From Brooklawnia propionicigenes (GTDB lineage Bacteria; Actinomycetota; Actinomycetes; Propionibacteriales; Propionibacteriaceae), in assembly GCF_030297015.1 (NCBI RefSeq), contig NZ_AP028056.1:1002939-1066938 (forward strand): 64,000 nucleotides of DNA, read 5' to 3'. A program made the translations under genes and the position numbers. Below are positions 2,174 to 53,085 of this stretch, piece after piece. Each line of letters starts with the position of its first letter. The first letter of the stretch is position 1. The notes beneath the pieces were generated by a model. The model had not been told where the DNA came from. It saw only the letters and a list, made by a program, of their open reading frames with translations, and ran no database searches.

Positions 2174-3604
2174 TCAATCGTTGAAGACCAGAGTCTTCAC
2201 CACCACCGGCACCGCCTGCCCGGCGCCCACCGGTGCACCGATGTCGATGTAATCGCCCAACCCGGTGTGGACGCCGTCGATGCAGACCACATCATCGCGG
2301 CGCCCACGTTGCACCGCGAGGGATTGGCCGAGCACCTTGGCGCGGTCGTTTTCCAGGACGACCACCAGCGGATTGGGCCCGTTCAAGATGGTGGCCGCGC
2401 CGTCGATGATCGCCTGCGCCGTCTCCTGAACCGAGGCGAACGAATTGATGTGCTGACCGCTGAAGCAGACCGCCACCGCACGACTGAGATCGTCGGGATT
2501 GAGCAGGGCGAGTTGCTCTTTGATCGCGGCCGCCAACCGGGCCGGGTCGGCTGCCTGTTCATCGGGAACCCGCAGGATCGGCACATTGCGGATCGGCAGC
2601 AGCTCCCGCGCGTACTCGATCGTCGACCCGCTGATCTCCATGGTGTGGACACCCGCGCCCACTACCGTCGCACCGATGGTTTCCGCGCCGTGATAGCGCT
2701 TCACCAGGCCGAATGCGCTCTCGTCAGCGATCGCGGCACCCAGCAGCGGCCCAATGTCGCCGAAGCGGAACGGGTTCGAGCTGCGATCGGCATCGATCAG
2801 ATCGGCCACGCCACCGGAGAAGCTGATCGCCGCCGGGATGATCTCGGAACCGAGCGGTCGTCCCATGTTGGTGTACATGGTCGAGTGCATCTCATCTCGG
2901 GAGATCAGCCCGACGCCCATCGCCAGTTGCCTGGCCATCACCCTTGCCAGGGTCCGCAGGCGCTCCAGATCGGCGCGATCGCCCACCTCCAGCGGGATAC
3001 CGGATGCCGCGGCGAGCCGGCGGATCTGATGCGAGATGTAGCTGATCTTGCCACTGTCGACCCGCACCAGGCGTCCGCCGATATCCAGGCAGGACGCCCC
3101 GAGCAGCCGGCCGAACCGGTAGGCCGCAATGTTGGTCGTCCCGCCACCGACGTCGAGATTGGCGATGACCTGGGGATTGTCCCGTGACCACGAATCGATG
3201 CCGACCCCGCGGGCCGCCAGCACCGCTTCGAGCAGCGGGCCGGCGGCGGCGACAACGAAGTCACCGGCGAGTTCACTGAGCGCCTGCAAGACCTGCTCGG
3301 CGTTGTCGGCGCGGGCGGTCTCACCGGTGATGATCGCAGCACCGGTATGCACGTCGGATGGTTTCACCCCGGCCGCGCGGTATTCGTCCTCGACGATCGT
3401 CCGCAGCGCGTCCACATCGATCAATTCGGGATTGATCAGTGGCGTGAGATAGATACGGCTGCGATAGATGACCGTCTTGTCGACGATCGAGATGCGCGGC
3501 ACGACGAAGGCGCCGGCCACGTTCTCGATCGTCAGCCTGCTGAATACCAGTTCGGTGGTGGAGGTACCGACGTCGATACCGACACTGATGACGGTTTCAC
3601 TCAT
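2174..3604 (-). CDS. eutA: Ethanolamine ammonia-lyase reactivating factor
   Basis: EutA is an actin-fold ATPase chaperone that removes damaged cobalamin from inactivated EutBC so that fresh adenosylcobalamin can bind. The 476-residue protein begins with the phosphate-binding pattern SVGIDVGTSTTELVFS and carries a second nucleotide-binding loop, NLDVGGGTTNIAAY, near residue 150. Both are expected for the family, and the length matches known EutA. It starts three bases after the alcohol dehydrogenase gene and lies 76 bases upstream of eutB, so it is probably co-transcribed with both. The start at 3604 gives the expected short N-terminus before the first loop. Confidence 0.94.
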   Translation of the reverse strand: MSETVISVGIDVGTSTTELVFSRLTIENVAGAFVVPRISIVDKTVIYRSRIYLTPLINPELIDVDALRTIVEDEYRAAGVKPSDVHTGAAIITGETARADNAEQVLQALSELAGDFVVAAAGPLLEAVLAARGVGIDSWSRDNPQVIANLDVGGGTTNIAAYRFGRLLGASCLDIGGRLVRVDSGKISYISHQIRRLAAASGIPLEVGDRADLERLRTLARVMARQLAMGVGLISRDEMHSTMYTNMGRPLGSEIIPAAISFSGGVADLIDADRSSNPFRFGDIGPLLGAAIADESAFGLVKRYHGAETIGATVVGAGVHTMEISGSTIEYARELLPIRNVPILRVPDEQAADPARLAAAIKEQLALLNPDDLSRAVAVCFSGQHINSFASVQETAQAIIDGAATILNGPNPLVVVLENDRAKVLGQSLAVQRGRRDDVVCIDGVHTGLGDYIDIGAPVGAGQAVPVVVKTLVFND

Positions 3605-3607
3605 GGC

Positions 3608-4639
3608 TCAGCCGAGTTCGAGCACGGTGCGCCCAGGCAGAGCGGAGGTCTGCATGTGCTCCATCACCTCGTTGATGTCTTGCAGCCTCGCGGTCTGTAC
3701 CGTGGCAGCGATCTTCTCCTGCGCCGCCAGGTGCAGTGCGCGCCCGAGATCGTAGCGGGTGCCCACGATCGACCCGCGCAAGGTGATGGCGCGCATCACC
3801 ATGTCGTAGATCGACAACGGGAAATCGCCCGGGGGCAAGCCGTTGAGCACCACGGTGCCACCAGGACGCATCATGCCGACCGCCTGCCCGAATGCCGGCG
3901 GGGAGACGGCGGTCACCAGGGCGCCGTGCGCACCACCGATCTGACGTTGCAGATAGCCGACCGGGTCGGTGTTGCGGACGTTGATGGTCATGGTCGCACC
4001 CAGCCGGGCCGCCAGGTTCAGCTTGGCGTCGTCGATGTCGACGGCGACCACCTGGAATCCCATCGCCCTGCCGTACTGGACGGCCAGATGTCCCAGACCA
4101 CCGATGCCGGAGATGACCACCCAGTCACCCGGGTCGGCGTCGGCCATCATCAGGCCCTTGTAGACGGTCAGGCCCGCGCAGATCAGCGGCGCCGCGGCGA
4201 TGTAGTCGAGCCCGTCGGGCAGTCTCGTCGCGAACCGTCCATAGGCCACCAGGTATTCGGCGAAGCCACCATCGACGTCGTAGCCGGAGCGCAACTGCTG
4301 GTTGCACAGTGTCTCCCAGCCCGACAGGCACTGCTCACAGGTTCCGCAGGCCCAGTGCAGCCACGGCACGCCGACCCGGTCGCCGATGCTGAGATAGTCC
4401 ACCCCCGGGCCCAACTGGACGACCTCGCCGACCGCCTCGTGGCCGGGTACTCGCGGCAACGATGGCTTGTCGGGCCAATCACCTTCAACGGCATGCAGGT
4501 CGGTATGGCAGACTCCGCAGGCCCGGACCCGGACCAGGACCTGGCCGGGGCCGGGGGTGGGTACCGGCAGCTGGCGCAGCTCGAGCGGGTGACGGAACCG
4601 GGTGACCACAGCCGCATTCATCAAAGTTTCCATCATCAT
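3608..4639 (-). CDS. adhP: Zinc-dependent alcohol dehydrogenase, AdhP-like
   Basis: Medium-chain NAD-dependent alcohol dehydrogenase of 343 residues. Visible motifs are the catalytic zinc site GVCHTDLHA with GHEAVGEV, the structural zinc cysteines CGTCEQCLSGWETLC, and the Rossmann loop GIGGLGHLAVQY. In this operon the likely substrate is the acetaldehyde released by ethanolamine ammonia-lyase, reduced to ethanol to regenerate NAD; that role is inferred from context. Its ATG at 4639 overlaps the stop of the upstream pta gene (ATGA), which indicates translational coupling. Two further ATG codons follow at once and another lies at 4621, so the exact start could be a few codons later. Confidence 0.9.
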   Translation of the reverse strand: MMMETLMNAAVVTRFRHPLELRQLPVPTPGPGQVLVRVRACGVCHTDLHAVEGDWPDKPSLPRVPGHEAVGEVVQLGPGVDYLSIGDRVGVPWLHWACGTCEQCLSGWETLCNQQLRSGYDVDGGFAEYLVAYGRFATRLPDGLDYIAAAPLICAGLTVYKGLMMADADPGDWVVISGIGGLGHLAVQYGRAMGFQVVAVDIDDAKLNLAARLGATMTINVRNTDPVGYLQRQIGGAHGALVTAVSPPAFGQAVGMMRPGGTVVLNGLPPGDFPLSIYDMVMRAITLRGSIVGTRYDLGRALHLAAQEKIAATVQTARLQDINEVMEHMQTSALPGRTVLELG

Positions 4640-10103: not shown

Positions 10104-10336
<233 letters not shown>

Positions 10337-22097: not shown

Positions 22098-22264
22098 TGC
22101 ATCGGCTGCCGGAGCCGGCTGTGCTTCAATCGGATAACGCCTGTATCTTTGTGCTCGATCCGCTCTCAACTGGGTGAGACGCTGGACACACCAAAATCAC
22201 CAGCAGGTAGCGTAAGTCCCTGCAGCGCCGCGTAGCGGTGCGCAGTGACGTGGAAGGAACCATC

Positions 22265-23257
22265 GTGAAGAACACTTGGCGCACGTTCGCGGCGCTAGCC
22301 TCGGTCGGCACGCTTCTCTTGGCCGGCTGTGGCTCGGACTCGGGCTCGTCGAGCACCGCCAGCGCCGGCGGCTCGGACACCGAGTACAAGATCGGCATCA
22401 CCCAGTTCGTCTCGCACGCCTCATTGGACGCGGCTCGCGAGGGCTTCAAGGATGGCCTGGCCGACGCCGGCCTGAAGGTCAGCTACGACGAGCAGAACGC
22501 GCAGGCCGATCAAGCCACCGCGTCGTCGATTGCGAGCAAGTTCGCCAGCGCCGACCTCGACCTGGTGCTGGCCATCGCCACCCCCACCGCACAAGCCACC
22601 GCTCAGGTCATCAGTGATGTGCCGATCGTGTTCACCGCAGTCACCGATCCGGTCGCCGCTGACCTGGTGGCCTCCAATGAGGCCCCGGGCGCCAATGTGA
22701 CCGGCACCACCGACATGAATCCGGTCGCCGAACAGATCGATCTGGTCAAGCAGGTGGCACCGGACGCCAAGACGGTCGGCATCATCTACTCGTCCGGCGA
22801 GATCAACTCGGCCGTCCAGGTTGACCTGGCACGCCAGGCCGCGGCGGCGCAGGGTCTGGAGGTCGTCGAGAAGACGATCACCACCACCGGTGAGGTGCTG
22901 CAGGCCGCCCAGTCGCTCGACGTCGACGCCATCTACGTGCCCACCGACAACAACGTGGTCGCAGGTCTCGACTCGGTGCTGCAGGTCGCCGAGGAACGCA
23001 AGATCCCGGTGATCGCCGGTGAGACCGAGTCGGTCTCCAAGGGAGCCCTGATCACCTACGGACTCGACTACTACGAGCTGGGCAAGCAGACCGCCGACAT
23101 GGCCGTCAAGGTCCTGACCGAGGGCGCCGATCCCGCGACCATGCCGGTCGAGTCCCAGAAGACCCCGAAGCTGGTTATCAACACCACCGCAGCAGAGCGC
23201 ATGGGCGTCACCATTCCGCAGTCGCTGCTCGACAAGGCTGACGAAACGGTTAAGTAG
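22265..23257 (+). CDS. ABC transporter substrate-binding lipoprotein (TrpX/DUF534-like)
   Basis: Extracellular solute receptor of 330 residues. A signal peptide ends in the lipobox LLLAGC, followed by a serine- and glycine-rich linker, so it is lipid-anchored. The mature part (YKIGITQFVSHASLDAAREG, then VPIVFTAVTDPVAADLV) matches the PF04392 family. Members bind tryptophan or related amino acids in some bacteria; for many the ligand is unknown. The GTG at 22265 with GGAAGGA upstream is preferred. It starts a three-gene operon with a permease and an ATPase. Adjacent purine genes raise the option of a nucleoside ligand, but this is context only. I saw no T-box in the leader, only two short hairpins. 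Confidence 0.87.
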   Translation: MKNTWRTFAALASVGTLLLAGCGSDSGSSSTASAGGSDTEYKIGITQFVSHASLDAAREGFKDGLADAGLKVSYDEQNAQADQATASSIASKFASADLDLVLAIATPTAQATAQVISDVPIVFTAVTDPVAADLVASNEAPGANVTGTTDMNPVAEQIDLVKQVAPDAKTVGIIYSSGEINSAVQVDLARQAAAAQGLEVVEKTITTTGEVLQAAQSLDVDAIYVPTDNNVVAGLDSVLQVAEERKIPVIAGETESVSKGALITYGLDYYELGKQTADMAVKVLTEGADPATMPVESQKTPKLVINTTAAERMGVTIPQSLLDKADETVK

Positions 23258-23260
23258 CAC

Positions 23261-24259
23261 ATGATCACAGCGATCGACCTCGGTCTGATTTTCGGGTTGA
23301 TGGCGCTCGGGGTCTACCTGACCTTCCGCGTTCTCGACTTCGCCGATCTGACCATCGACGGCAGTTTCACGAGCGGCGCCGCCACGGCTGCCACCCTGAT
23401 TGTTGCGGGGTGGCAGCCGTTGACGGCGACCCTGGCGGGAACTGCCGTCGGGTTGGTCGCCGGACTGGTTACCGGTCTGCTCAACACCTGGGGCAAGATC
23501 CACCCGCTGCTGGCGGGCATCTTGACCCAGATCGCGTTGTACTCGATCAACCTGCGGATCATGGGCAAAGCGAATGTGCCCCTGCTGCGCACCACCACCT
23601 TGTTCACCCCGCTGCGCGACAAGGGGCTGCTGGGCACCTGGGTGTCGGTCGGGATTCTGGCCGTGCTGCTGGCCGTCTTCGTGGTCGCGCTCGTCTGGTT
23701 CCTGTCGACCGATGTCGGTCTGGCATTGCGGGCCACCGGCGACAATGAGGGCATGGCACGTGCGCAGGGCGTCAACACCGATGCGATGACGCTGCTCGGG
23801 CTGTCGCTGAGCAACGGGCTGGTGGCCCTGTCCGGTGCGCTGTTCGCGCAGTATCAGGGCTATGCCGATATCGGTATGGGCATCGGGTTGATCGTCGCCG
23901 GTCTGGCTTCGGTCATCATCGGTACCGCGATCATCAATAACGGACACATCTGGATCACCGCACTCGCGGTCGTCTGCGGTTCGATCATCTACCGCCTGAT
24001 CATCCAGGCGGCGCTGACGATTCCGTGGTTCGATCCCAACGACATGAAGCTGCTGAGCGCCCTGATCGTGATCACCGCGCTGCTGCTGCCCCGCTGGGAT
24101 GTCTTCAACCGGCTCAGAGCTCGCAGCCGCGACAAGGAGTCCGCCGCCGAGGCCTGGGGTGATCCCGACCGCGATCCGGATCTGGAAGAACTCGACTCGG
24201 GTGATGTCCGGGCGCCTCGTCCGGGGATTGTGAAGAAGGTGAAGCGCGCCGATGCTTGA
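23261..24259 (+). CDS. ABC transporter permease of the TrpX-like system
   Basis: Membrane subunit of 332 residues with about eight to ten helices, of the branched-chain-type permease family (COG4120-like). It begins LGLIFGLMALGVYLTFRVLD and contains the coupling segment RATGDNEGMARAQGVNTD that contacts the ATPase. The charged C-terminal tail (from about residue 285) is cytoplasmic. It starts three bases after the binding-protein gene and overlaps the ATPase gene by eight bases, so the three subunits are made together. A single permease gene suggests a homodimer. Confidence 0.9.
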   Translation: MITAIDLGLIFGLMALGVYLTFRVLDFADLTIDGSFTSGAATAATLIVAGWQPLTATLAGTAVGLVAGLVTGLLNTWGKIHPLLAGILTQIALYSINLRIMGKANVPLLRTTTLFTPLRDKGLLGTWVSVGILAVLLAVFVVALVWFLSTDVGLALRATGDNEGMARAQGVNTDAMTLLGLSLSNGLVALSGALFAQYQGYADIGMGIGLIVAGLASVIIGTAIINNGHIWITALAVVCGSIIYRLIIQAALTIPWFDPNDMKLLSALIVITALLLPRWDVFNRLRARSRDKESAAEAWGDPDRDPDLEELDSGDVRAPRPGIVKKVKRADA

Positions 24260-25043
24260 GGTTCGCCATGTCACGAAGGCTTTCTTCCCGCGCACCGTCA
24301 ACGAGAAGATCGCGCTGCGCGACATCTCACTGACCCTGAAGTCCGGGGATTTCGCGACCATCATCGGATCGAACGGCGCCGGCAAATCGACGCTGCTGAA
24401 TGTGGTGGCGGGGCGCTACCGCCCCGATCTGGGCAGCGTCTGGATCGATGGTGAAGATGTCACCCGGCTGCCCGACTATCGGGTGGCCCGCCAAGTGGGC
24501 CGGGTCTTCCAGGACCCGATGGCCGGCACCAGCCCGCACCTGACGATCGAGGAGAATCTGGCGATCGCCTGGGCCCGCACTCGTGGACGCGCGCTCAAAC
24601 TGGGTGTCACCAACGCCCGCCGTGAACAGTTCCGCGAAGAACTGAAGACCCTCGAGCTGGGTCTGGAGAACCGGCTGACCGCGCGCGTCGGATTGCTCTC
24701 GGGAGGCCAGCGGCAGGCGCTGTCGCTGGTCATGGCGGCGTTCACCCAGCCACGCATCCTGCTGTTGGACGAACACACCGCGGCCCTCGACCCCCAGCGG
24801 GCGGCCTTGATCACCCGGCTGACCGATCAGATGGTGGAGCGCCACAAGCTGACCGCGATGATGGTCACTCACAACATGGAGCAGGCGCTGCAGCTGGGCA
24901 ACCGCCTGATCATGATGCACGAGGGCGAGATCATTCTCGAGTTGCGCGACGAGGCCAAGCAGAAGGCCACCGTGGCCGACCTGATGTCGGAGTTCGACAA
25001 GCTCAAGGGTGTCCAGTTGAGCGATCGCACGCTGCTGGCCTGA
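24252..25043 (+). CDS. ABC transporter ATPase of the TrpX-like system
   Basis: Cytoplasmic ATPase of 263 residues that powers the importer. Visible motifs are Walker A GSNGAGKST (near residue 41), Q-loop VFQDPMAG, signature LSGGQRQALS, Walker B ILLLDEHTAALDP and the switch histidine MVTHN. The aspartate-glutamate-histidine order DEHTAALDP is characteristic of the COG1101 group that pairs with this permease type. It overlaps the permease gene by eight bases and ends 34 bases before add. Confidence 0.92.
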   Translation: MLEVRHVTKAFFPRTVNEKIALRDISLTLKSGDFATIIGSNGAGKSTLLNVVAGRYRPDLGSVWIDGEDVTRLPDYRVARQVGRVFQDPMAGTSPHLTIEENLAIAWARTRGRALKLGVTNARREQFREELKTLELGLENRLTARVGLLSGGQRQALSLVMAAFTQPRILLLDEHTAALDPQRAALITRLTDQMVERHKLTAMMVTHNMEQALQLGNRLIMMHEGEIILELRDEAKQKATVADLMSEFDKLKGVQLSDRTLLA

Positions 25044-25077: not shown

Positions 25078-26199
25078 ATGGCCGACGAAGAATTCTTCCG
25101 CAACCTGCCCAAGGTCACATTGCACGATCATCTGGACGGTGGACTGCGTCCGCAAACGATGATCGAGATCGCCGACGACATCGGCTATCGGCTGCCCGCC
25201 GGGTCGGCCGATGACCTGGCGGACTGGTTCTTCGAGACCGCGAATTCGGGCTCGCTGGCCCAATACCTGACCACTTTCGATCACACCACCGCCTGCATGC
25301 AGCGGGCCGGTGACCTACGCCGGGTCGCCCGCGAGTGGGTGGACGATCAGGTCGCCGACGGGGTTGTCGCCGGTGAGGCGCGCTGGGCGCCCGAGCAGCA
25401 TCTGCGCGCCGGGCTTGGCTTGGACGAGGCAGTCGAGGCCGTCGCCGAGGGCCTGCGCGAGGGCATGGATGCGGCCGCAGCGGCCGGCAAACCGTTCATC
25501 GCCAGGCAGCTGCTGTGCGCCATGCGGCACGCTGACCGCAGCCTGGAAATCGCTGAGTTGGCGCTGCGCCACCGCGATACGGATCTGGTAGCCGGATTCG
25601 ATATCGCCGGCGGCGAGCAGGGGAACCCGCCCACCAACCATCTGGCGGCCTTCCACCTGCTGCGCGACAACGACTTCTTCTACACCATCCACGCCGGCGA
25701 GGAAGGCCCGCTCGAGTCGCTGCACGAGGCCGTGCAGGTGTGCGGCGCGATGCGGCTGGGGCATGGCGTCAACATCGTCCAGGACATCACCCGTGATCCG
25801 CAGACCGGCCGCTATCTGCTGGGACGCCACGCTCGGTTCGTCCGCGATCAACAGATTCCGCTCGAGGTCTGCCCCAGCTCGAACCTGCAGACCGGGGTGG
25901 CGTCGTCCATCAAGGAGCATCCAATCGGCACCCTGATCTGGCTCGGCTTCAACGTGACCCTCAACTGCGACAACCGGCTGGTCGGATCGACCACGCTCAG
26001 CCGTGAATATGCGCTGGTGAGTGAGGCCTTCGGGTTGTCCACGATGCAGCTGGCCCAGATCGCGCTGGCCGGGGCGTCGGCGCTGTTCATCGACCACGCC
26101 GAGCGCACCCGGCTGGTCCAGCAGATGACGCTGCCCTGGTTCCAGGCCTCGGTCAACGAGCGCGGTGGTGGCGTCCAACCCGACCTCTGGGACCGCTGA
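25078..26199 (+). CDS. add: Adenosine deaminase
   Basis: Converts adenosine to inosine in purine salvage. The 373-residue protein has the metal-binding KVTLHDHLDGGL (HxH) near residue 15, the central FYTIHAGEEGP with the catalytic HAGE, RLGHGVNI, and the CPSSN motif with the downstream metal-binding aspartate region NCDNRLVG. Length and motif order match actinobacterial Add. It follows the ABC importer by 34 bases and may be part of the same transcript. Together with deoD at 28.3 kb it would convert adenosine to hypoxanthine and ribose 1-phosphate. Confidence 0.95.
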   Translation: MADEEFFRNLPKVTLHDHLDGGLRPQTMIEIADDIGYRLPAGSADDLADWFFETANSGSLAQYLTTFDHTTACMQRAGDLRRVAREWVDDQVADGVVAGEARWAPEQHLRAGLGLDEAVEAVAEGLREGMDAAAAAGKPFIARQLLCAMRHADRSLEIAELALRHRDTDLVAGFDIAGGEQGNPPTNHLAAFHLLRDNDFFYTIHAGEEGPLESLHEAVQVCGAMRLGHGVNIVQDITRDPQTGRYLLGRHARFVRDQQIPLEVCPSSNLQTGVASSIKEHPIGTLIWLGFNVTLNCDNRLVGSTTLSREYALVSEAFGLSTMQLAQIALAGASALFIDHAERTRLVQQMTLPWFQASVNERGGGVQPDLWDR

Positions 26200-26220
26200 G
26201 CCCACCCATCGCGGCCCGTC

Positions 26221-26352
26221 GAGCCTCCTCCGCTACCCGCAGCCCATTCCCGCGCCCCCGCAGCTCGTCCGGCCCGCAGCGCGTCCGGCCCGCAGCTCGT
26301 CCGGCCTGCCCGCCGAGCCCCCTCCGCTACCCACAGCCCGTTGTCGCGCCCC
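26221..26352. repeat. Nested GC-rich direct repeats after add
   Basis: Three tandem 16-bp units (CGCAGCTCGTCCGGCC and a one-base variant) fill 26259-26306. They are bracketed by two 38-bp imperfect direct repeats at 26221-26258 and 26315-26352 that differ at five positions. The block is non-coding and leads into the palindrome at 26345. Confidence 0.75.
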
Positions 26353-26404
26353 GAATCTGAAGATGCGCCCGATATATCGGGCGCATCTTCAGATTCCGGG
26401 CGCG
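26345..26404. repeat. 60-bp near-perfect palindrome
   Basis: The inner 44 bases (26353-26396) are a perfect palindrome with centre GATATATC and no loop. A single mismatched pair (26352/26397) is followed by seven more paired bases, giving 60 bases with one mismatch. It lies in the convergent space between add and the phosphohexomutase gene. A two-way terminator is the conservative reading, but its length, symmetry and lack of a loop are unusual for one. Confidence 0.9.
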
Positions 26405-26412
26405 GGAACAGT

Positions 26413-26461
26413 GGGGACGGGGCGCACAGGGGGACGGGGGGCGAGGGCGGGCGAGGGCGGG
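26413..26461 (+). other. G-run cluster with G-quadruplex potential
   Basis: At least eight runs of three or more G separated by one to six bases occur on the plus strand, just before the 3' end of the phosphohexomutase gene. This satisfies the usual G-quadruplex pattern. Whether it folds is unknown. Confidence 0.55.
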
Positions 26462-26478
26462 CGCCGGCATGCCCTGGG

Positions 26479-28191
26479 TCAGAGCCCGAGACAGGCGGTC
26501 AACTCCTGCTTGATCTGCGTCAGCCGCGCGGCTGCCGCTGCCTTGGCGTTGGCGAGTTGCTCGCGTCCGGCGACCTCTTCGACCACCTCGAGATAGCACT
26601 TCAGCTTGGGCTCGGTGCCCGATGGACGCACCACCACCCGGTCGCCACGCTCGGTCTCCAGGCGGTAGCCGGGCGTTGGCGGCAAACCGAGATAACCGTC
26701 CATCAGGTTCACGAACTCGCGCACCCGCGAACCGCCCAGCGATGACGGCGGGGCCGCGGCCAGCCTCCGCAGCGCCGCGGTGATCTGCTCAGCTTCGTCC
26801 ACCCGGAAGGTCAGCGGGGCGGTCGCGTGCAGGCCGTGACGCACGGCCAGATCGTCCAGCAGGTCGAGCATGCTGCGGCCTGCCTGCTTGAGCGATGCGG
26901 CCAGCCGGCAGCCGACCAGTGCGGCGGTGATGCCGTCCTTGTCGCGCACGGCCTGGGGATTGACGCAGTAGCCGAGCGCCTCCTCATAGCCGTAGACCAG
27001 GCCAGGTGTCCGGGCGATCCACTTGAACCCGGTCAGCGTCTGCGCCGAGCCCAGCCGGTGTTCCGCAGCGATCGCATCCAGCAGGGACGACGAGACGATC
27101 GACCTGGCCAGCACCCGATGCTTGTCACCGGCATAACACGCACCGAGATATTCGCCCAGTAGCGCGCCCACCTGGTCGCCGGTCAACTGCCGCCAGCCAC
27201 CGTCCACCGAACCGTCGGGCACCGCGAGCGAGCAGCGGTCGGCGTCCGGGTCGAGAGCGACGACCAGATCGGCCGAGATCTGGCGCGCCAAGGTAATGGC
27301 CAGATCGAGCGCCCCGGGTTCTTCGGGATTCGGGAAGGCCACGGTCGGGAAGTCCGGGTCAGGCTCGCGCTGAGCCGCCACCAGCTGCAGATCGGCGACA
27401 CCGATCGCGCCCAGCACGCGACTCGCCAGCTCGGCTCCCACTCCGTGCATCGCGGTCAGCACCACCCGTAGCCCGTCCACCTGTTCGGAGGCCTTGCTGA
27501 GCGTGGCGAGCCGGGTGTTGAGCGCCAGCGCCGCGCTCAGGTACGAGTCCTCGACGGATTCGTCGAGCATCTGCCAACCCCCAGCGGTCACCGGGATGCC
27601 GTCGGCCGGGCCGGAGGCCTCGATCGCGGCCATGATCTGTTCATCGAGCGGGCTGACCAGCTGAGCGCCGCGTCCCGGGCCGGTGACCATGCGTCCACCA
27701 AGGTAGACCTTGTAGCCGTTGTCGCGGGCAGGGTTGTGGGAGGCGGTGATCATCACCCCCGCATCGGTGTCCAGGTCATTGATGGCGAAGGCGAGCACCG
27801 GGGTGGGAGTCGCGTGTGGAAGCAGGAATGCGCGTCCGCCTGCGGCCACCACCACACCGGCAACGGTGCGCGCGAACTCCCAGGAGCGATGCCGGGCGTC
27901 GTGCCCGATCACGACGTGTATGTCATCGCCGACGGTGCGCCGCAAGACCTCGCAGAGCCCGGCGGTGGCACGGATCACCACGGCGGTGTTCATCCGGTTC
28001 GGACCGGCGCCGATCGCTCCCCGCAGACCCGCGGTGCCGAACCTCAGCATTCCGGACATCCGATCGTCCAGTTCATCGGCAGCCCGCCGATCACCCGATT
28101 CGGCGCGATCGACGAGGCTCCGCAGTTCGGCCCGGTCGCCGGCGTCCGGATCATGCTCGATCCACTCGCGTGCGCTGGCTGCTGCTTGCAT
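26479..28191 (-). CDS. Phospho-sugar mutase (phosphoglucomutase/phosphomannomutase)
   Basis: Alpha-D-phosphohexomutase of 570 residues that moves a phosphate between the 1- and 6-positions of a hexose or the 1- and 5-positions of ribose. It has LRFGTAGLRGAIGAGPNRM with its sugar loop, the phosphoserine loop ITASHNPARDNGYKVY, the metal loop DPDADRCSLAVPDG, and the phosphate-binding VVVRPSGTEPKLKCYL at the end. Next to adenosine deaminase and purine nucleoside phosphorylase, ribose 1-phosphate is a plausible substrate, although glucose or mannose phosphates are equally possible. ATG 28191 was chosen for its AAGGGG site; longer starts up to 28302 overlap the deoD promoter. Confidence 0.9.
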   Translation of the reverse strand: MQAAASAREWIEHDPDAGDRAELRSLVDRAESGDRRAADELDDRMSGMLRFGTAGLRGAIGAGPNRMNTAVVIRATAGLCEVLRRTVGDDIHVVIGHDARHRSWEFARTVAGVVVAAGGRAFLLPHATPTPVLAFAINDLDTDAGVMITASHNPARDNGYKVYLGGRMVTGPGRGAQLVSPLDEQIMAAIEASGPADGIPVTAGGWQMLDESVEDSYLSAALALNTRLATLSKASEQVDGLRVVLTAMHGVGAELASRVLGAIGVADLQLVAAQREPDPDFPTVAFPNPEEPGALDLAITLARQISADLVVALDPDADRCSLAVPDGSVDGGWRQLTGDQVGALLGEYLGACYAGDKHRVLARSIVSSSLLDAIAAEHRLGSAQTLTGFKWIARTPGLVYGYEEALGYCVNPQAVRDKDGITAALVGCRLAASLKQAGRSMLDLLDDLAVRHGLHATAPLTFRVDEAEQITAALRRLAAAPPSSLGGSRVREFVNLMDGYLGLPPTPGYRLETERGDRVVVRPSGTEPKLKCYLEVVEEVAGREQLANAKAAAAARLTQIKQELTACLGL

Positions 28192-28287
28192 GGCCACCCC
28201 TTGGCTGAGCATCGGTCTATCCTGAGGGCTACGCCCTACGGGCCATTCTTCCCCGATCTGCACACCAGTGAGAGGACCCCTGCACGC

Positions 28288-37071: not shown

Positions 37072-40000
37072 TCAGGCCTTCTCGACGTGGACATGCAGGC
37101 CCGTCTCGGCGTCATCGACCCAGCCCTGGCCGACCGCGCCCTGCGTGGTCACCGTGGCCAGCACCTCGTCGGCGATCTGCCTCAGGTGCCCGGCGACCGC
37201 CTTGGCCATCTCCGGATCGTCGGCAGCCCACTCCAGGCGGATGCGGTCGCTGACGTCCAGCCCGGATGCCTTGCGGGTCTCCTGGATGAAACGGATCGCC
37301 TCGCGGACCAGACCTGCCGAGACGAGCTCGGGGGTCAGCTCCAGATCGAGGGCGATCGTCTGACCGTCCTCCTCGACCACCGACCAGCCCTGGCGGGGAC
37401 GCTCGGTGATGAAGACATCGTCGGCGCCGAGCTCGACCTCGCCGACACCCTCGACATCCAGCTTCACCACACCGCCGGCGGCCAGCCGGCGGGACAGCTC
37501 CGCGGCATCGGCGGCAGCCACCGCCTTGGCGACCGTCGGGGTCTGTTTGCCGTAGCGCTTGCCGAGTGCCCGGAAGTTCGCCTTCGCCGAGTAGTCGACG
37601 ACATCTCCGGCCGCGTGGAAGGTTTCGACCGAGCCGATGTTGAGCTCGGCGGTGATCTCGGCGAGCAGCGCGTCCCGCAGCTGGGTACGAGCTCCCGAAC
37701 TGATCAGCGCACGCCGTAGCGGCTGCCTGGTCTTGACCTTGGCATCGGCGCGGGCGGCGCGTCCCAACTCGACCAGCCGACGAGCCAGTTTCATGGCCGA
37801 AGCCAGCCCGGTGTCGATCAGGGACTCATCGGCCACCGGCCAGCTGGTCAGATGAACCGAGTCGAGGCCATCGGGATCGGTCGACACGAACAGATCCTGC
37901 CAGACCCGCTCGGTGATGAACGGGACGATCGGCGCCATCAACCGGGTCAGCTGATTCAGGGTCTCGTGCAACGTCCACAAGGCCCCCGGGTCACCGGTCC
38001 AGAAACGGCGCCGGCTACGGCGAACGTACCAATTGGAGAGGTTGTCGATGAACTCCTGCAAGAGCACACCGGCATGCTGGGTGTCGAAGTTCTCCAGGTC
38101 TGCGGTGACATCCACGATGAGCTGCTGGGTGGCCGAGACCAGCCAGCGATCCAGCACGTGGCGTTCTGCCACCGCCGGAGCCGAACCGGTCGGCGTCCAG
38201 CCGTTCGCCCGGGCGTAGAGGCTTTGGAAGGCGACGGTATTCCAGTAGGTCAGCAGCACCTTGCGGACGGTCTCCTGCAGTGCCCCGGCGCCGACTCGGC
38301 GAGCCGACCACGGCGAACCGGAGCAGGCCATGAACCAGCGCACCGCGTCCGCGCCGTGCTCGTCCATCAGCGGGATCGGCTCCAAGATGTTGCCCAGATG
38401 CTTGCTCATCTTGCGGCCGTCCTCGGCGAGGATGTGGCCCAAGCACAGCACATTGCGGTAGCTCGACTGGTCGAAGACCAGCGTGCCGACCGCCATCAGC
38501 GTGTAGAACCAGCCGCGGGTCTGATCGATGGCCTCGCAGATGAAATCGGCCGGGTAGTGCTGCTCGAACTTCTCCTTCGAACCCTCCACGTAGGGGTAAC
38601 CCCATTGCGCGAATGGCATGGAGCCGGAATCGAACCAGGCGTCGATCACCTCGGGAACGCGGCGGTAGGTGCCCGCCTGGCCTGCGATGGTGAAGGTGAT
38701 GTCATCGACGAACGGACGATGCGGATCAAGCTCACTCAGGTCCAGACCGGCCAGTTCACCCAACTCGGCGCGGGAGCCGACGCAGACCATCTTGGCTGGG
38801 TCCGCGTCGTTACGCCAGATCGGCAGCGGAGTGCCCCAGTAGCGGCTGCGGCTCAGCGCCCAGTCGATGTTGTTGTTCAGCCAGTCACCGTAGCGGCCGT
38901 GCTTGATGGTGTCGGGGTACCAGTTGGTTTCCTCGTTCTCGCGCAGCAACCGGTCCTTGATGCGGGTGGTGCGGATGTACCAGGACGGCTGGGCGTAATA
39001 GATCAGCGGGGTGCCGCAGCGCCAGCAGTGCGGATAGGAGTGCGTGTACGGCTGGAGCTTCCACAACAGGCCGCGAGCTTCGAGGTCGGCAACCAGTGCC
39101 TGGTCGGCGGTCTTGAAGAAGACGCCGCCCACCAGCGGGACGGTCGGCTCGAAGGTGCCGTCGGAGCGGATCGGGTTGAGCATCTCCAGGCCGTAGGCAC
39201 GGCAGATCGCCATGTCGTCGGCGCCGAAGGCGGGCGCCTGATGCACCAGGCCGGTGCCGTCGGCGGTGGTGACATAGTCGGCGAGCACCACGAAGTTGGC
39301 CCGGTCCTTGAACGGCACCAGCTCGAAGGGACGCTGATAGTCCCAGTACTCCATCTCGGCCCCGGTGATCTGGTCGACGATCTGCCAGACCGGCTTGCCG
39401 TCATCATCGGTGATCGAGCCGAGCACGGTTTCGAACAGCGGCTCGGCGACCACCAGCTGGGAAGCGCCGTCGGTGGCACGCACGTAGCTGACCTCGGGAT
39501 GCACCGCGACCGCGGTGTTGCTGACCAGCGTCCACGGGGTGGTCGTCCAGACCAGCAGGTCGGCGCCCTGCCAGGGACCGCTGGTCAGCGGGAAACGGAC
39601 GTAGACCGAGGGGTCGGAGACGTCCTCGTATCCCTGCGAGACCTCGTGATCGCTCAACGCGGTCTGATCCTTCGGGCAGTACGGGGCGACCCGGTAGTCC
39701 TCGGCCAGCAGACCCTCGTCGAAGATCTTCTTGAGGGCCCACCACTCCGACTCGACATAGTGCGGGTCCATCGTCCAGTAGGCGTCGTCGAGGTTGACCC
39801 AGTAACCCATCCGGTTGGTCAGCTCCGCGAACTCGCCGACATAGCGGGACACCGAGGTGCGGCACAGCTCATTGAACTTGGCTACGCCGAATGCCTCGAT
39901 CTCGGACTTGTCGTCGATGCCGAGTTCTTGCTCGACGGCCAGCTCGACGGGCAGGCCGTGGCAGTCCCAGCCGGCCTTGCGGTCGACGCGTCGGCCCTGC

Positions 40001-44617: not shown

Positions 44618-44712
44618 AAAAAGGGGCCCCCGCGCACCCGGAAGAGCTCACTTACCCTTGCTGCCTTCCGGCCCTGGGGGGGTTGGGCGAGTTACCGCCG
44701 CACGGGGGACCT
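44618..44712 (-). ncRNA. ffs: Signal recognition particle RNA (4.5S type)
   Basis: The minus strand carries the conserved apical domain GGCCGGAAGGCAGCAAGGGT, flanked by complementary arms (GGTCCCCCGTGC near 44712 and GCGCGGGGGCC near 44625). A T-run follows (A-run 44618-44622 on the plus strand), giving a typical intrinsic terminator. The length of about 90 bases fits the bacterial small SRP RNA, which binds Ffh for co-translational membrane targeting. Position just upstream of dnaX is a common arrangement in actinobacteria. Confidence 0.95.
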
Positions 44713-44802
44713 GACGTCCATACTACGTGCATCGTTGGCCCGAGCGCCAAACCCGGGTCAACGATGCAGGTCCTGAACGGGATCCGTGGAGGCGTCGGCG
44801 GC

Positions 44803-52314: not shown

Positions 52315-53085
52315 TCAGTTCCGATCCGCTTCCGGCTGGGCGGGCTGCGCCAGTTCGAGCGCGGCGACCGCACCGATGATCGTGATCGCCGGAGGGGTGA
52401 CCCCTTCACGACCAGCGATCTCGGCGATCTCGCCCAGCGGAGCGCGCAGCACCCGCATCTGATCCGAAGCCGCATTCATCACGATCGCGGCAGGGGTCCC
52501 GGCGTCCAGGCCGGCACCGACGAGTTCGGCAACGATGTCGGGAAGGTACTTGACGCCCATCAGGATCACCAGCGTGGTGTTGGTCTGGGCCAGCGCCACC
52601 CAATTGAGTTCGCTGCGCGAATCCTGCGGGCGGACGTGGCCGCTGACGATGGTGACGCCCTGGGACAGCCCGCGATGGGTGACCGGAATGCCCGCCAGAG
52701 CGGGAGCCGCGATCGCCGAGCTGACGCCGGGAATCACCTGCACCGGCACGCCGGCCAGTGCACACTCGATGACCTCCTCGCCGCCGCGACCGAACAGGAA
52801 GTTGTCGCCGCCCTTCAGCCGCACCACGCGGCGTCCCTGCCTGGCCTGTTCGATGAGGATCGCGTTGATGTCTTCCTGAGACGTCTGAGGGCCCCGCGGG
52901 ATCTTGCCGACGTCGATCTTCTCGGCGTCCGGGCGGGCCTGGTCGAGCACGGCAAGTGGCGCCAGCCTGTCGTAGACGATGACATCGGCCTGTTGCACGG
53001 CGCGCAGTCCCCCGACGGTGATGAGATCCGGGTCACCTGGACCGCCGCCGACCAGAACGACCGTGCCGGGAGTGAGCTGGTTCAT
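52315..53085 (-). CDS. cobA: Uroporphyrinogen-III C-methyltransferase
   Basis: Adds two methyl groups to uroporphyrinogen III to form precorrin-2, the entry point to cobalamin and siroheme. The 256-residue protein has the SAM-binding GGGPGDPDLITVGGLRAV, then VVRLKGGDNFLFGRGGEE and VIPGVSSAIAAPALAGIPVTH, the SUMT signature. It is not fused to the precorrin-2 dehydrogenase domain, which here sits on CbiX. It is a lone minus-strand gene, 66 bases from the divergent cbiT start. Confidence 0.95.
   Translation of the reverse strand: MNQLTPGTVVLVGGGPGDPDLITVGGLRAVQQADVIVYDRLAPLAVLDQARPDAEKIDVGKIPRGPQTSQEDINAILIEQARQGRRVVRLKGGDNFLFGRGGEEVIECALAGVPVQVIPGVSSAIAAPALAGIPVTHRGLSQGVTIVSGHVRPQDSRSELNWVALAQTNTTLVILMGVKYLPDIVAELVGAGLDAGTPAAIVMNAASDQMRVLRAPLGEIAEIAGREGVTPPAITIIGAVAALELAQPAQPEADRN

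Follow-up and report, generated by a model that had tools for sequence, protein, structure and literature searches.

The palindrome described here is probably a solo, non-autonomous copy belonging to a two-part system of gene and palindrome, a partnership of the REPIN kind. One part would be a gene for a protein of about 305 residues, with an AbiEi-like winged-helix N-terminus and a PD-(D/E)XK/DUF559-like C-terminus, lying between two four-unit palindromes of about 68 bp, so that gene and brackets would form a cassette of about 1.1-1.2 kb. The other part would be the like palindromes scattered in the intergenic DNA of the same genome. The evidence for this association covers the palindrome family, its architecture, the bracketing of the gene, the generality of that bracketing, the specificity of the homologues and, in the genomes tested, a dispersal private to each genome.

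Taken alone, the copy is a modest solo element, and the larger finding is a recurrent, controlled association of gene and repeat outside known families. The arrangement of a gene with its private palindromes recurs in related bacteria, seems undescribed, and points to new selfish or mobile DNA. More tentatively, it may represent a new class of mobile DNA across the Propionibacteriales, and probably further, in which a protein with a winged helix and a restriction-endonuclease fold mobilises four-unit palindromes as solos and its own gene as a bracketed cassette, each lineage having a private palindrome. We hold this to be a serious possibility, short of probable.

The palindrome and its surroundings

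Only one palindrome in the 64-kb window (the whole stretch of DNA analysed) has perfect arms of at least 11 nt and a loop of at most 10 nt. It is the perfect, loopless 44-bp core (22 + 22) that the original prediction had described, and re-reading the sequence gave the same core (Table 1). Ungapped extension carries the palindrome to 26340-26409 (91%). The chance expectation of a 26-bp core with at most three mismatches was 0.00 in 100 shuffled windows, and the 68-bp element folds as RNA at -57.5 kcal/mol (z -10.9). The runner-up in the window, near 39243, reaches 23/34 pairs.

Table 1. Positions in the window of the palindromic element, its units and its immediate neighbours.
Feature	Position	Strand	Basis
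68-bp palindromic element	26341..26408	.	covariance model R1, 88.7 / 86.2 bits on the two strands, the window copy itself being among the 20 rows used to build the model; 31/34 pairs; alignments A1-A3
Perfect 44-bp loopless core	26353..26396	.	
Outer unit A, GCG-n3-GAAAT type	26346..26356	+	place in 68-bp alignment; GCG invariant in 56/56 rows
Inner unit B, GCG-n3-GATAT type	26365..26375	+	19 bp after unit A; alignment A3
Inner unit B', inverted	26374..26384	-	alignment A3
Outer unit A', inverted	26393..26403	-	alignment A3
Adenosine deaminase gene, host neighbour	25078..26199	+	NF006847, 478 bits (cut-off 412)
Phosphohexomutase-type gene, host neighbour, convergent	26479..28212	-	under the cut-off of every NCBIfam model matched; start approximate (ORF from 28302)
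45-bp direct repeat, first copy	26214..26258	+	left flank plus 12 bases (26247-26258) matching the element start; 87%

The immediate surroundings are largely as first reported. The neighbouring genes are indeed convergent, a G-rich block follows the palindrome at about 26410-26462, and the tandem 16-bp repeats are present as three 21-nt copies at a 16-bp pitch (26257-26309). The accompanying repeat exists too, but it was undersized at 38 bp: it is a direct repeat of 45 bp, with its second copy at 26308-26352, and the tandem repeats separate its two copies. Because its final 12 bases are those with which the palindrome starts, the 45-bp repeat looks like the remnant of a duplicated junction, and its first copy is probably a truncated, decayed leftover from a local duplication of the element end. 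The adenosine deaminase and mutase genes are neighbours in the congener G005 too, with no element in the DNA between them.

Directly upstream of the adenosine deaminase gene, the stretch 22238-25043 holds genes for a TrpX-like substrate-binding protein (the TrpX match is below its cut-off) and an ABC ATPase-type protein, together with a gene at 23261-24259; these probably form one transporter operon. Elsewhere the window carries a bacterial small SRP RNA gene (44618-44714), a tRNA-Pro at 10104, and, at 52838, a predicted tRNA-Arg absent from the Rfam list at gathering score.

A dispersed family of palindromes

The original prediction had proposed a search of the genome for further copies, and this returned at least 12 full copies, the window's own included, on the single 3,211,969-bp contig (best-strand E 4.4e-14 to 2.1e-17), so the palindrome is not the solitary maintained structure that it had been taken for. 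The window occupies 1002939-1066938 of this contig. The covariance model spans 68 positions and was built from 20 copies, among them the 12 from the own genome; run on that genome, it gave the same 12 and, at E 0.02, a weak match of 46 nt. The 16-bp core, with up to two mismatches, occurs at 13 sites there, 12 with arms and one (L017) without. Since the model search scored 150 candidates per genome, all copy numbers are lower bounds, and a scan for the units alone found a copy in G006 (L151:3613) that the model listing lacks.

Five of the eight genus genomes have sites of this kind: at least 12 in the own genome, at least 17 in a MAG of the same species (JAAYVB01, 'Propionibacterium sp. isolate AS27yjCOA_218'), at least 29 in G002, at least 18 in G006, and at least one in G005. 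None was found among the scored candidates in G001, G003 and G004. Copies from G002 and G006 form their own species-specific subfamilies.

The own genome and the MAG have copies at 11 common positions, a comparison outside which the window's copy falls, as its region was not found in the MAG. The presence of 12 full copies on one contig and of 11 positions common to the same-species genome speaks against an assembly artefact, which had been raised as a possible cause. The instability expected of such palindromes was seen: 31 bp are gone through the centre of one own-genome copy (L084, about 3590-3628) compared with its intact counterpart in the MAG (L038, 33-100). Another common copy (L077 and L011) differs by two nearby substitutions, in one arm only, toward the variant of other copies, which suggests an exchange between copies. 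Two closely spaced pairs add four palindromes in another region of the MAG (L158; G057 C35:164500-171806); this region failed to align with the 17.5 kb of own-genome DNA surrounding the shared copy next to it.

In the own genome (L005-L016), 11 of the 12 sites have a left flank rich in C and a right flank rich in G, at both 0-30 and 30-60 bp and whatever the gene orientation; in G002 and G006 this bias is weak. Core matches outside the MAG account for 13 of 22 stretches (in Burkholderiaceae, Clostridia, Arthrobacter and other groups); as they have no outer units, they were taken as chance, as were likewise L017, L019 of G005 and L021 of G015. Neither the 50,697 phage records nor the 72,556 plasmid records searched match the element, and a phage or plasmid origin was rejected on this result together with those for the protein (below).

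Architecture and placement of the element

A gap-free alignment of 68 columns, with 56 copies drawn from three species, shows four units of about 11 bp in the order ->-><-<-: a direct pair at a 19-bp pitch faces an inverted pair. Columns 6-8 (GCG) and 42-44 (CGC) never vary, and the overall pattern is GCG-n3-GAAATC, 7 bp, GCG-n3-GAnATnTC-n3-CGC, 7 bp, GATTTC-n3-CGC. The species differ in the spacers and in the n3 letters, and copies from G002 are often unpaired in the spacers, a figure that includes a diverged group (L137-L140). Three G002 matches span 66 bp, and the G005 site 69 bp. Being too diverged, L137-L140 were left out of the A3 alignment, of the flank-duplication, permutation and flank-composition tests, and of the unit model.

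The number of permutations, out of 5000, that reached the observed arm pairing beyond family conservation was 137 for the own genome, 44 for G010, 1231 and 460 for two groups of G006, and 4982 for G002. As pairing beyond the consensus is thus weak or absent, conservation appears to act on the units more than on a perfect stem, and perfect pairing as a selected feature was discarded. A half element as the mobile unit was also set aside: none stood apart from a full copy in the DNA scanned, which lay mostly around known copies. The diverged copies L140 and L157 have one half only above threshold.

All 64 site centres considered (12 own, 29 from G002, 17 from G006 and six extra ones from the MAG) lie outside the genes called by a codon-score gene finder. 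The 58 sites of the own genome, G002 and G006 are distributed over 19 convergent, 33 tandem and 6 divergent gene pairs, while the 24 gaps of at least 70 bp in the window comprise 2, 16 and 6, respectively. No target-site duplication was detected at 56 sites (exact, 2-9 bp, symmetric offsets), nor any excess outside the element: exact flank repeats of 3 bp occur at 4 of the 56 sites at most for any offset, and no site has one of 5-9 bp. Such duplications could have decayed in old copies. A search for clean empty sites gave a single candidate, which was a rearrangement.

A gene between two palindromes

Among the genes around all copies, one family recurs, in three species, in the interval of about 1.0-1.1 kb that separates two copies. 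It is present in the own genome (at 281.6 kb, with a degenerate second copy), in the MAG with both palindromes intact, twice in G006, and in G002, where a frameshift splits the gene (L113, 1431-2500) and at least 29 palindromes persist. In the MAG the downstream bracket begins 2 bp past the stop codon (L038). Strong homologues (E<=1e-90) occur within the genus in the own genome, G002, G005 and G006, all of which have palindrome sites. G001 and G003 have neither homologue nor site among the scored candidates, and G004 combines a weak homologue (4.3e-27) with no site among them. The gene is low in copy number and its neighbours are diverse, no Pfam family appearing in more than 2 of 62 neighbouring proteins (30 of the 40 loci added later, described below, supplied 60 of the genes, and the other two lie beside the own cassette).

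Over residues of about 12-167, the encoded protein of about 305 residues scores with PADLOC AbiEi models (E 2.8e-13; best E values for three proteins 2.8e-13, 1.4e-12 and 4.8e-15). Invariant among 30 aligned homologues (alignment A5, without L173, whose frame came out wrong, and without L181 and L187, but with L144, L194 and L196 added) are, among others, E192, Q210, D225, E236, D238, G239 and R262, and K242 is conserved in at least 90% of them. We read these columns as a putative PD-(D/E)XK pattern, DUF559-like, with a conserved D and E-x-(D/K). Across the 30 homologues, Pfam detects AbiEi_4 in 16, and DUF559 and REase_MTES_1575 weakly in one each. Searches of NCBIfam gave no match and a profile search of the PDB no relevant one, and a single-sequence structure model (pLDDT 36) had no usable fold. 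Records label the homologues hypothetical, AbiEi antitoxin or, for one of them, DUF559.

The protein is unmatched in the 50,697 phage records. It has eight distant matches in the plasmid collection and, among viral contigs, five weak ones to its C-terminal part, none with the larger alignment. No AbiEii-like partner was seen beside the gene in five of five annotated records, which have an incomplete gene table, and the 25 listed of 138 neighbour families include none.

Bracketing beyond the genus

Homologues (E<=1e-20) were found in 69 of 96 genomes, the own included. In a first set of 30 loci, the upstream and downstream flanks have a repeat in common at 24 of the 28 testable; at the other two (L169 and L176) the flanks overlap at the contig end. 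The four loci without it are L165, L178, L181 and L183, of which L165 is a strong homologue inside the genus, in G002. In the 30-row protein set, where the flanks of L169 and L176 are likewise short, palindromes at threshold stand on both sides of the gene in 19 cases, on one side in 4 and on neither in 7.

Forty further loci were taken from the homologue list before their flanks were seen, 20 of them new positions in genomes of the family already sampled elsewhere and 20 in unsampled genomes of other families of the order. A repeat common to the two 400-bp flanks (E<=1e-4) was present at 37 of the 40 (19/20 in the family and 18/20 in other families), against 1 of 79 control genes. Palindromes on both sides reached the threshold at 22 of the 40 (14/20 and 8/20), compared with 3 of the 79 controls. 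Split by origin, the 31 neighbouring genes among the controls had no repeat and three double palindromes, and the 48 window genes one repeat and no double palindrome.

Palindromes with at least 21/34 pairs are concentrated close to the gene, with 39 in the 15.6 kb that lie no more than 300 bp from a match end and 12 in the 52 kb further out, counts that leave out L162, L163 and loci shorter than 3.5 kb; the window has six, including the one studied. Outside the order, seven of the eight plasmid-collection matches were covered (H6 was left out), in records that look chromosome-like by gene content. Palindromes on both sides were present in two of these seven loci, both from Tsukamurella (L194 and L196), and a bracket pair was not seen in L192, L193, L195, L197 and L198.

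Homologue-specific brackets and their dispersal

Bracket sequences differ between homologues, even inside one genome. For 20 selected loci (15 of the 20 further in-family loci and five earlier ones), the two brackets of a locus had a median local similarity score of 51. Between loci of one genome the median was 9 (24 pairs, maximum 25), and between genomes it was 8 (166 pairs, maximum 15). Proteins closer in identity have slightly more similar palindromes (Mantel r 0.24; 55/5000). In G006, which has the gene twice, the 17 copies divide into nine assigned to the brackets of gene A and eight to those of gene B, with one bracket copy counted in each and a close assignment for L145 (32 vs 29).

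Dispersal was followed in six genomes in all, two of them from other genera and chosen for their clear brackets. The bracket from G067 gave 57 blastn matches at 28 sites in its own genome, two brackets included, and that from G010 gave 19 matches at 8 sites, brackets included, with partial ones beside them; neither had any match in 10 other genomes. Called genes contain none of the 19 dispersed places retrieved, some of which are a single site listed once per strand.

Alternative explanations

The protein might regulate transcription, with the palindromes as its operators and its own gene among those it controls. An AbiEi-like N-terminus, units particular to each homologue and a bracket on the upstream side would all suit such a regulon. 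Its operators, however, would be oddly placed, given the second bracket downstream of the gene and the many more convergent than divergent sites, and they come as 68-bp tetrads, with no separate half element in DNA scanned mostly around the copies, so that we regard the regulon as unlikely. Similarly doubtful is the idea that whole cassettes move and that recombination of palindrome with palindrome then deletes the gene and leaves one behind, as with solo LTRs. It would explain why the gene sits between two like palindromes, why arms look shuffled between copies, and why solos are many and genes few. It fits poorly with the gene-less close pairs of the MAG (140 and 89 bp between; C35:167684/167892 and 170160/170317), and no cassette was seen where a relative has a solo, in a comparison that was not systematic.

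That chance gene conversion amplified ordinary terminators working in both directions, or hairpins at mRNA 3' ends, is very improbable. The hairpin is very stable and the convergent context is enriched relative to the window gaps, but neither arm is followed by a T run, the internal units are conserved, the length is 68 bp in 56 of 56 aligned copies, the subfamilies follow species, and the palindromes are tied to one gene family (37/40 vs 1/79), a link that already puts this reading in disfavour. An intrinsic terminator in the strict sense, a short GC stem with loop and U-tract, was rejected by reading the sequence, which has a loopless 44-bp core and no T run. The original prediction had named many intergenic copies acting as ordinary terminators as the finding that would speak against it. 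Many intergenic copies do exist, but in their fixed length, four units and subfamilies they are unlike ordinary terminators; together with the 6 of 58 divergent sites and the bracketed gene, these features bear out its view of the structure as unusual. A lone structure or terminator is ruled out by the other copies and the link to the gene. Equally little weight goes to a defence or toxin-antitoxin module, where the nuclease would be held in check by the RNA or DNA of the palindrome and solo copies would serve as decoys: the AbiEi similarity and the nuclease-like motif favour it, whereas the neighbourhoods surveyed for an AbiEii-like partner and the phage records searched for the protein speak against it.

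A proposed mechanism

We favour instead the two-part system of gene and palindrome, in which recognition, cutting and mobility are what we infer from the association. The predicted N-terminal domain would recognise the units of about 11 bp, as the specificity of the brackets suggests, and the nuclease-like domain, if its motifs are read correctly, would act on the palindrome as a duplex tetrad, a cruciform or a single-strand hairpin. In this way palindromes would be copied to new places, now and then together with the gene that two of them enclose, and the protein family would diversify together with its recognition sequence. Mobility is suggested by the private dispersal, the species subfamilies and the diverse neighbourhoods of the cassette. 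Against it stand the lack of target-site duplications at the sites inspected, the lack of a clean empty site and the 11 common positions, which indicate that movement is not frequent. The window copy would be harmless downstream of two convergent genes, where its hairpin (-57 kcal/mol) may secondarily end or protect transcripts.

If this system is confirmed, it would give a role to a nuclease-like family of orphan proteins, unrelated to the HUH/Y1 enzymes of REPINs, that 69 of the 96 genomes searched contain, and dozens of natural pairs of protein and target would be at hand for reading the DNA specificity of the family. It would also be a second independent example of a partnership of protein and palindrome inside bacterial genomes.

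Comparison with known systems

MITEs and IS-derived miniature elements are short, non-autonomous and dispersed, with inverted symmetry. The elements described here share these properties, but differ in having no target-site duplication at the 56 sites, and no known transposase was identified among the recurrent neighbours of the copies. The AbiE type IV toxin-antitoxin system is a bicistronic abiEi-abiEii operon. Our protein resembles its first component in the N-terminal part, and departs from the system in the extra C-terminal nuclease-like part, in the palindrome brackets and in having no AbiEii partner in the neighbourhoods surveyed. Its C-terminal motif is shared with DUF559 and REase_MTES_1575 proteins, although Pfam detects each of the two in a single member of the 30. 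A search of open-access full text, with subscription literature outside its scope, found no paper that connects flanking palindromes with DUF559 or AbiEi genes.

CGTC-tagged REPs are likewise dispersed palindromic repeats without a dedicated Y1 transposase (PMC3733652); the system described here differs in having a bracketed protein gene. The text of this GTAG/CGTC survey has no word beginning with actinobacteri, propionibacteri or corynebacteri (PMC3733652).

The closest system in its logic is REPIN/RAYT (the REPtron), described as dispersed, intergenic, inverted pairs of repeat units that form hairpins, with a cognate protein gene (PMC3116915, PMC8266576); the literature consulted ties REPINs to one enzyme superfamily, HUH/Y1. 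Both systems have a low-copy cognate gene beside the same repeats, and repeats that vary with the protein. The dispersed unit is an inverted pair here as well, in all 56 aligned copies, and the cognate gene is flanked by repeats. The protein, however, is AbiEi/DUF559-like and not a Y1 HUH transposase. Membership of the RAYT family was rejected, as the Y1 transposase domain PF01797 was found in none of the eight genus genomes and was detected in 5 of 14 control genomes. The own-family consensus has no unpaired GTAG tag, and the letters GTAG do occur inside the paired units of some other brackets (for example L164, L174 and L185). Finally, where a REPIN is built from stem-loops, the half element here is a direct repeat of two units, so that four units at a 19-bp pitch fill 68 bp, and the gene itself is a bracketed cassette.
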